A program made the translations under genes and the position numbers. From the NCBI GenBank assembly GCA_017654935.2, contig CM065682.1:37220824-37284823 (forward strand): a stretch of 64,000 nt of DNA, in the 5' to 3' direction. The notes below the pieces were generated by a model. It was not told where the DNA came from. It made no database searches and was given only the letters and a program-made list of their open reading frames with translations. This DNA is from Phymorhynchus buccinoides. Lineage: Eukaryota > Mollusca > Gastropoda > Neogastropoda > Raphitomidae. Each line of letters opens with the position of its first letter. The first letter of the stretch is position 1. Of this stretch, positions 7,901 through 10,900 are shown piece by piece.

Positions 7901-10900
7901 ACACACACACACACACACGGATCCACACACACACACACACACACACACACACACACACACACACACACACACACACACACAGATCCACACACACACACAC
8001 ACACGGATCCACACACACCACACCAACACGCACCCACACACTATTGAATGTACATCTCCAGACAAAGGACAAATAGATTCACACACGTCAATTGAAAGCA
8101 TGACAATGTTTGGAATGTGATCCAGTGAGTGAACAGGCACGTGCGCGCGCTTGTGTGTGTGTGTGTGTGTGTGTGTGTGTGTGTGTGCATGTGTGTGTGT
8201 GCGTGTGTGTGTGTGTGTGTACATGCGTGTGCATGTGAGTGTGTGCATTCATGCATGTGTGTGTGTGTTTTTGTGGATGAGTGTGTTTGTGGGTGTACAT
8301 GCATGTGTGTGAATGTGAGTGCATGTGTTTAGTCACTTTTGTTTTGGAAAATAAAAATCTTATAATGCTTGCTCCATGTCAATGGTTAGATCCACTAACC
8401 TACAACTTAAGACATGGATAGCGTTGATAGTTACAGTGGATAACTGCTAACTCATAAAAAGGATAACTCAAAAACACTGAATAACTCATAATCAATTTCT
8501 AGTCCCAGTTTCAAAGGTCTTTTAAACTAAAAATATTGGCTATCTGAAAATAAAATTTCAGTCCCTCCAATTTTGACTTAAATGATTTTCACTGTATAGT
8601 GATTTTCTTCATGGGCTCACATTGACAACGAAAAACATCTAGAGTGAAAAGCTCCTAAAACACCTATAGTGTAGGCAGGCGAGGTGCGTTTCTCCACTCA
8701 CGTTGACAAAGATAAACATCTTGAGTGAAAAGCTCCTAAAACACCTATAGTGTAGGTAGGCGAGGTGCGTTTCTCCACTCACGTTGACAACGATAAACAT
8801 CTAGAGTGTAAAGCTCCTAAAACACCTATAGTGTAGGTAGGCGAGGTGCGTTTCTCCACTCACGTTGACAACGATAAACATCTAGAGTGAAAAGCTCCTA
8901 AAACACCTATAGTGTAGGTAGGCGAGGTGCGTTTCTCCACTCACGTTGACAAAGATAAACATCTTGAGTGAAAAGCTCCTAAAACACCTATAGTGTAGGC
9001 AGGCGAGGTGCGTTTCTCCACTCACATTGACGACGATAAACATCTAGAGTGAAAAGCTCCTAAAACACCCATAGTGTAGGTAGGCGAGGTGCGTTTCTCC
9101 ACTCACGTTGACAACGATAAACATCTAGAGTGTAAAGCTCCTAAAACACCCATAGTGTAGGTAGGCGAGGTGCGTTTCTCCACTCACATTGACAACGATA
9201 AACATCTAGAGTGTAAAGCTCCTAAAACACCCATAGTGTAGGTAGGCGAGGTGCGTTTCTCCACTCACATTGACGACGGAGAACATCTAGAGTGAAAAGC
9301 TCCTAAAACACCTATAGTGTAGGTAGGCGAGGTGCGTTTCTCCACTCACATTGACAACGGTAAACATCTAGAATGTAAAGCTCCTAAAACACCTATAGTG
9401 TAGGCAGGCGAGGTGCGTTTCTCCACTCACATTGACAACGGTAAACATCTAGAATGTAAAGCTCCTAAAACACCTATAGTGTAGGCAGGCGAGGTGCGTT
9501 TCTCCACTCACGTTGACAACGATAAACATGTTAGAGTGTAAAGCTCCTAAAACACCTATAGTGTAGGTAGGCGAGGTGCGTTTCTCCACTCACGTTGACA
9601 TTGATAAACATGCTAGAGTGTAAAGCTCCTAAAACACCTATAGTGTAGGTAGGAGAGGTGCGCTTTTCCACTCACGTTGACGACGGAGAACATGCTGGAG
9701 AAGGAGATCTGGATGGTGAGGAGGAAGATGGCTCCGTTGATGTTCATCACCCCTTTCTGGTCGTAGTCCAAGCGCAGGTAGATCAGACCCAACACCAACG
9801 ACACAAACTGCGTTCGCAAAGATAAAAACAACAACGTTGTCCCGATAACATCAAACAAATCTAGAAAGTATTTCTATAGTGTTGACCTCCTTTTGCCTTC
9901 TATCATATTAGCTGGAGTGGCAATGTTGCGATGTGTACTGTCGACACATTAGCGCAGTGCCGTGAACTGCCATGCTGTGCCCTATTGTGTTGTGTCATTT
10001 ACGCAGAGCTGTATTGCTTCGTGTACTTGCGCTGTGTAATGTAGTGTCAGCAATGCAAAAGCATATCATAATGTAATTCACACGTGACATATTGCAAGGG
10101 GTAACACAGAGCAGCTCAGGTCTGTAATTCACACGTAACATATTGCAGGGGGTAACATAGAGCAGCTCAGGTCTGTAATTCATACATGACATATTGCAGG
10201 GGGGGTAACATAGAGCAGGTCAGGTCTGTAATTCACACGTGACATATTGCAGGGGGGGTAACATAGAGCAGCTCAGGTCTGTAATTCACACGTGACATAT
10301 TGCAAGGGGTAACACAGAGCAGGTCAGGTCTGTAATTCACACGTGACATATTGCAGGGGGGGTAACATAGAGCAGCTCAGGTCTGTAATTCACACGTGAC
10401 ATATTGCAGGGGGGTAACTCAGGTCTGTAATTCACACATGACATATTGCAGGGGGGTAACATAGAACAGCTGAGGTCTGTAATTCACACATGACATATTG
10501 CAGGGGGTAACATAGAGCAGGTCAGGTCTGTAATTCACACGTGACATATTGCAGGGGGGTAACATAGAGCAGGTCAGGTCTGTAATTCACACGTGACATA
10601 TTGCAGGGGGGTAACATAGAGCAGCTGAGGTCTGTAATTCACACGTGACATATTGCAGGGGGTAACATAGAGCAGCTGAGGTCTGTAATTCACACGTGAC
10701 ATATTGCAGGGGGGTAACAGGTCTGTAATTCACACGACATATTGCAGGGGGGTAACATAGAGCAGCTCAGGTCTGTAATTCACACGTGACATATTGCAGG
10801 GGGTAACATAGAGCAGCTCAGGTCTGTAATTCACACATGTGACATATTGCAGGGGGGTAACATAGAGCAGCTCAGGTCTGTAATTCACACGTGACATATT

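Follow-up and report, generated by a model that had tools for sequence, protein, structure and literature searches.

Tandem copies of an exon end and its 5′ splice site in an intron of white-like ABCG genes of the gastropod Phymorhynchus buccinoides: a probable neutral minisatellite

An intron of a white-like ABCG transporter gene of Phymorhynchus buccinoides begins with thirteen tandem units, each of which carries a copy of the end of the preceding exon (exon b) together with its 5′ splice site, and related arrays are found at the same exon end in six further copies of this gene. In the array analysed here, the sites of the duplicated unit supply both a donor and an acceptor-like sequence. 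This array is probably a neutral intronic minisatellite, which was seeded by a tandem duplication across the end of exon b and is removed together with the intron. What sets it apart is how many equal donors (14 or 21) are present in genes of which the located exons appear usable.

The window, i.e. the whole stretch of 64,000 nucleotides that was analysed, corresponds to C3:37220824-37284823 of a 2.12-Gb assembly. Exons b and c of the gene together match the Pfam family PF01061 (ABC2_membrane) with an E value of 7.9e-13. In protein searches the best match was 84% and none came near 100%; the nearest named proteins are those of Babylonia areolata (84% identity), Nucella (79%) and Littorina (78%), and the named relatives in Babylonia, Littorina and Pomacea are annotated as white-like. 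Eight exons, the borders of which were located with the guidance of homologues, are all open, have GT-AG borders and measure 58-132 nt. These exons and the parts of the array are as follows, in the direction of the gene:

31046-31141, minus strand: linker exon, open, identical to paralogous copy A across the 95 bases compared
14311-14416, minus strand: exon a, upstream transmembrane exon
9676-9807, minus strand: exon b, 44 codons, 132 nt, ending in phase 0, contributes to the ABC2_membrane match
9676-9693, minus strand: exon end ATGTTCTCCGTCGTCAAC, of which the array contains the copies
9512-9675, minus strand: units 1 and 2, of 82 bp, in which ATG is preceded by the extra C of the exon (AGCATG, AACATG)
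8621-9511, minus strand: units 3-13, 81 bp each, GTGAGT ... CTCTAG (or CTCAAG, TTCTAG) followed by the 18-nt copy
8615-8620, minus strand: GTGAGC, the final donor copy, at the array's right edge
8560-8605, minus strand: start of a dispersed repeat near the right edge of the array, matched at many genome sites in a genome DNA search
7754-7846, minus strand: exon c, next after the array
6485-6542, minus strand: exon d, open
5111-5188, minus strand: exon e, open
3875-3980, minus strand: exon f, open
1857-1957, minus strand: exon g, open

In the sense direction, exon b (9807-9676) terminates in ...AGCATGTTCTCCGTCGTCAAC with GTGAGT directly after it, and the 13 tandem units that follow span about 1.06 kb. 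The copies of the 18-nt exon end (9693-9676) start at 9611, 9529, 9448, 9367, 9286, 9205 and 9124 in units 1-7 and at 9043, 8962, 8881, 8800, 8719 and 8638 in units 8-13. TRF reports the array at 8616-9685, with a period of 81, 13.2 copies and 95% matches; since this span reaches to 9685 and thus into exon b, the array overlaps the exon end. Head-to-tail units of 81 bp fall inside the 10-100 bp range of minisatellite units. A 24-mer taken from an earlier note on this DNA, which had been made from the sequence letters, has 12 matches with at most three mismatches (four of them exact) and none in 100 shuffled sequences, which excludes an array arising by chance.

The earlier note had described thirteen copies of the exon end downstream of exon 9807-9676, and these are indeed present, each with GTGAG after it. 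The full GTGAGT, which it had given for every unit, is found in 12 of 13, the last unit having GTGAGC instead, and its unit length of 81 bp is correct for units 3-13, with 82 bp in units 1 and 2. Its count of 11 units with AG directly before the ATG was reproduced (units 3-13); unit 1 reads AGCATG, and unit 2 reads AACATG and has no AG. The exon borders also bear out that exon b ends in phase 0, the next exon beginning at 7846. The six-codon segment MFIVVN holds as far as the 18-nt in-frame anatomy is concerned, but the 18-mer varies among the units, with the translations MFIVVN, MFTVVN, MFIFVN, MFINVN, MFSVVN and MFFVVN. AG, 18 nt and GT thus follow one another, in frame and free of stops, in 11 of the 13 units. 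All 11 AGs go back to a single inherited sequence that was copied and therefore do not represent 11 independent events, and the same applies to the count of GTs. When exon b is read through into unit 1, a stop is encountered at the unit's own TAG.

A search of the genome DNA with the array returned seven full matches, all of them at white-like copies: six are on C3 and the seventh is on contig C3226. In this search 40 of 161 candidates were scored, so weak matches could be missed. These arrays fall into two types. Type 1, with 13 units, comprises the window copy (copy W), copy A (C3:37092700-37116000) and the copy on C3226, and type 2, with 20 units, comprises four C3 copies at 36.03, 37.34, 37.41 and 37.46 Mb. 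All seven adjoin the same exon end, the unit number differing between paralogues (13 vs 20). Units 1 and 2 in type 1 and unit 1 in type 2 have no AG directly before the 18-mer. As a side observation, the white-like ABCG copies at C3:36.02-37.50 Mb and on C3226 lie in both orientations within long near-identical segments, and some of them may represent haplotype duplicates; the copy on C3226 is broken or misassembled at exon b, where the first 21 bases and the preceding intron do not match the other copies. No array is present in a diverged paralogue (C3:40.33 Mb), which is only a partial match (exon 82% over 115 bases). The intron of the array-free paralogue starts with GTTAGTGGAAAAC, which is close to GTGAGTGGAGAAAC of the array unit, indicating that the unit is composed of the exon end plus the ancestral start of the intron.

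Between the two types, the arrays have diverged by 4.5-6.0%, i.e. more than their left neighbour (3 of 99 intron bases differ) and less than their right neighbour (23 of 249, or 9.2%; 47 of 246, or 19%, in copy E). Over 700 downstream bases, simple repeats among them, global alignments differ by 12.6-24.4%, and other alignments across the transmembrane half, some of which include exons, by 1.4-7.6%, a range that omits one match of 72 bases (24%) whose position does not correspond. With the divergence of the array lying between that of its two flanks, the simplest explanation is that an array, or the first units of one, was already present when the types split; the same picture would result from exchange between loci. 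That the array is less diverged than the right flank counts against its neutrality, as this could mean constraint as well as exchange between loci.

When unit order was aligned between types, the observed values (89, 92 and 88) were no better than the means of shuffled orders (88.0, 88.7 and 90.3), with 697, 872 and 296 of 1000 shuffles as good. In same-type controls, by contrast, order was clearly retained (D-E 33 vs a mean of 85.4, W-A 3 vs 53.1; 0 of 500 shuffles as good), and the method recovered the order in 50 of 50 trials after deletion of 7 of 20 units. Thus, the interiors of the arrays were turned over after the types had parted, which is usual minisatellite behaviour. The units of one array are not consistently nearer to each other than to those of other arrays (summed minimum distances of the 13 units are 23 within their own array vs 28, 26 and 20 for copies D, B and E, respectively), so unit variants are shared between types and are either old or exchanged, another point that counts against a simple neutral history. 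At the exon-proximal edge, unit 1 is 82 bp long and reads AGCATG, with the exon's extra C, in all seven arrays, which makes this edge look the oldest. The direction of growth that the earlier note had read from this unit is therefore supported in part, by the edge, whereas the interior order does not match between types.

How such a unit may have originated is suggested by the sequence on the 5′ side of the ATG. Here, unit and exon agree at 5 of 6, 6 of 8 and 8 of 20 positions, i.e. similarity fades after about 7 bases, which would place the breakpoint of the duplication at this point and would explain the AG as part of it. We infer that a short tandem duplication across the 3′ end of exon b, comprising some 25 exon bases, the donor and some 57 intron bases, seeded the array. 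Its breakpoint would have been at a short match, CTCCAGC in the exon vs CTCTAGC in the unit, which would have placed an AG just 5′ of each exon-end copy. The arrays would then have expanded and turned over to give 13 units in one paralogue type and 20 in the other. The 64-nt intron part of the unit gave no sign of a longer exon-derived stretch: its similarity to the exon upstream of ATG scores 9.0, whereas shuffled sequences average 8.1, and 287 of 1000 of them score as high.

Retention of the splice-site dinucleotides is high. The seven arrays together comprise 119 units; all 119 have GT, 108 have AG immediately 5′ of ATG, and 116 retain the 18-nt length. Units were cut at GTGAG for this count, and all cut lengths are 80-87, so that no unit lacking GTGAG is hidden. 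Two of the three changes in 18-nt length are in copy C, where irregular units may be consensus errors. The earlier note had proposed neutral decay of AG and GT as a touchstone; both are largely kept, but turnover alone keeps units alike without selection, and these counts are therefore no test of selection. In the exon part, 7 of 18 columns vary vs 9 of 63 in the rest (p 0.039), a weak difference that is largely due to one linked exon-like variant; for copies A and D pooled the figures are 7 of 18 vs 11 of 63.

Scored with position matrices, the copied donors reach 7.5-8.8 vs 8.0 for the true donor of exon b, and the gene's eight located donors cover 5.4-11.6; among 398 other GT sites, taken from the flanking intron stretches on either side, none scores as high as 8.0. 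The acceptors of units 3-13 score 2.4-4.9, exon b's own acceptor 2.4 and the eight real acceptors 1.7-10.2, with 16.5% of background AG sites (n = 212) reaching 2.4 and 1.9% reaching 4.9. As the copied donors and acceptors score about as high as the real ones, the site sequences alone neither exclude their use nor explain why the copies should be ignored, which counts against a neutral array that is simply skipped. A branch-site test decides nothing in this respect: yTnAy 14-50 nt before the acceptor was found in 0 of 13 units, but it is missing also at 5 of 8 real acceptors and present in 43% of 363 background 60-mers, which renders the test uninformative. Exons of 18 nt and introns of 63 nt are hard for ordinary exon recognition and for animal spliceosomes. 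Cells would mostly use the authentic donor at the end of the complete 132-nt exon, with the 18-nt segments being too short for exon recognition and the 63-nt spacers amounting to very short introns, and the entire array would be spliced away with the intron.

An unlikely account is that the array lowers the output of its host genes, i.e. that its sites are used often enough to generate stop-bearing transcripts, which would tune the array-bearing copies. The strength of the copied donors speaks for such a role, as does the fact that use of a later donor by read-through leads to a stop at a unit boundary. On the other hand, both paralogue types have kept the array, and copy A is open in its matched nucleotide-binding exons.

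Alternatively, the array-bearing copies could be decaying genes, in which splicing at the array is of no consequence, a reading we regard as rather unlikely. It draws on several irregularities. Over exons a-g, the window copy and copy D, which represent the two types, show 24 nonsynonymous and 6 synonymous differences and no gaps (dS 0.041, dN 0.048, dN/dS 1.16; some exon borders used in this calculation are slightly off, exon a by seven bases and others by one, with the frame being right). Alignment of copy D's linker exon reaches 79% and contains 7 gap letters. Exon a was not found in copy A as assembled, though the flanking exons are present. Finally, the nucleotide-binding matches of the window copy (33484-39604, minus strand) contain stops and frameshifts. 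Yet this last stretch differs from the near copy A by 321 gap openings and 150 mismatches over 5,154 aligned bases, or by 360 and 184 over 5,329 aligned bases in a second, overlapping alignment. Gap openings being about twice as frequent as mismatches, the stops and frameshifts are probably consensus errors rather than signs of old decay. For comparison, the 12-kb stretch containing the array shows 39 gap openings and 55 mismatches in its best alignment to copy A. A pseudogene status of the window copy was set aside on account of the indel-rich consensus in the stretch that contains the lesions. Moreover, the matched nucleotide-binding exons of copy A are free of stops, the window's eight located exons are open with GT-AG borders, and exons a-g align without gaps between types. 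A dN/dS of about 1.2 without gaps is what relaxed or diversifying change in the transporter domain would look like.

The earlier note had put forward a possible in-frame micro-exon array that would lengthen the transmembrane domain. In this reading, a variable number of 18-nt segments would be spliced in, each adding six residues at the inner end of transmembrane helix 2. Its attraction lies in the anatomy, with 11 of 13 units combining AG, 18 nt and GT in frame and without stops, in splice-site scores like those of exon b itself and in the retention of GT and AG across the seven arrays. No positive support for such use was obtained, however. Among 108 homologues examined, all from other species, 86 span the junction of exons b and c (22 do not), and an insertion at this junction is present in 0 of these 86. 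All seven arrays begin, next to the exon, with a unit that lacks in-frame competence, the 18-nt length has been lost in 3 of 119 units, and such small exons and introns would be difficult to recognize. Assuming native numbering of the 655-residue chain, the junction after exon b aligns to residue 446 of human ABCG2, and this residue is presumably at the inner end of transmembrane helix 2; residues added there would be expected to rotate and extend the helix. Micro-exon inclusion at the array is thus unlikely and, as an explanation of the array as a whole, the micro-exon reading is very unlikely; the silent decoys that the same note had offered as an alternative fit better. Less likely still is an elaborated version, in which variable inclusion of 13-20 micro-exons would generate a ladder of transporters in steps of six residues, tuned in each paralogue by the length of its array. 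An assembly artefact deserves hardly any credence: although the near-identical copies are clustered in both orientations and some may be haplotype duplicates, the two types are about 5% apart and have the array at one and the same exon end, three copies with 13 units each and four with 20.

For the neutral minisatellite, which we prefer to all of these, one further difficulty resides in exon b itself. Between types 9 of its 132 bases differ, all within the first 91, and the last 41 are identical. A second peculiarity of this exon end was noted in comparison with other gastropods. Relative to Babylonia, the window's exon b differs in 2 of the first 30 and 6 of the last 14 residues (window 9717-9676; p 0.008, with the partition chosen after looking); the corresponding differences are 4 and 6 for P0002, 6 and 5 for Nucella, and 3 and 7 for Littorina. 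The changed end is mostly common to both array types. A changed end is not peculiar to array-bearing copies, since the array-free paralogue also differs from Babylonia in 6 of the last 14 residues (and in 9 of the first 30); this speaks against the idea that it is tied to the array. In the window gene, a glutamine is aligned to N436 of human ABCG2, with native numbering assumed.

Minisatellites at exon-intron boundaries have precedents. De Grassi and Ciccarelli (2009; PMC2812944) describe minisatellites on exon-intron boundaries of human segmentally duplicated genes that gave rise to new splice patterns, with 30-bp units repeated 4 times on average and with transcripts revealing novel introns. 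The gastropod arrays resemble these in their position at an exon-intron boundary, in their occurrence in recently duplicated paralogues and in a copy number that differs among paralogues; in contrast to the cases described there, each gastropod unit carries a copy of the 5′ splice site, and the units number 13-20. Intron gain by duplication across an exon border is described for a potato RdRp gene by Ma et al. (2016; PMC4974935). As in that gene, a boundary-crossing duplication provides a potential intron with ready splice sites, whereas the gastropod duplication consists of an exon end plus donor, is repeated many times and has yielded candidate sites only. Schistosome micro-exon genes (PMC4350168) have most of their coding region in tiny symmetrical exons that are transcribed. 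Serial, tiny, symmetrical and in-frame exon-like segments are common to both systems, but the located coding exons of the gastropod gene measure 58-132 nt and its segments are near-identical copies of one exon end; with most of its located coding sequence outside very small symmetrical exons, the host gene is not a micro-exon gene in that sense. In the host family, white-type ABCG half transporters, none of the 86 spanning homologues has an insertion at this junction. Among the literature matches listed, there was no array of 5′ splice-site copies in a gastropod or ABCG gene, which is a weak negative.

The array constitutes a natural experiment in 5′ splice-site choice, with 14 or 21 tandem donors of about equal strength. 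It also illustrates how one duplication across an exon end could create micro-exon-like segments in a single step and then many copies of them, which is a possible origin of new exons or introns. Should the micro-exons be used after all, they would be a new means of varying the length of a transporter helix.

In keeping with a minisatellite, TRF found five additional ones with units of 43-103 bp within introns of this gene, at 7187-7503 (43-bp units), 10072-13516 (51/103), 13630-14021 (56), 32255-32649 (49) and 34353-35367 (46/93). Comparison of the whole window with Rfam at gathering thresholds gave no match. On the minus strand, long open frames at 17866-20292 and 371-1459 resemble LINE-type reverse transcriptases by eye.
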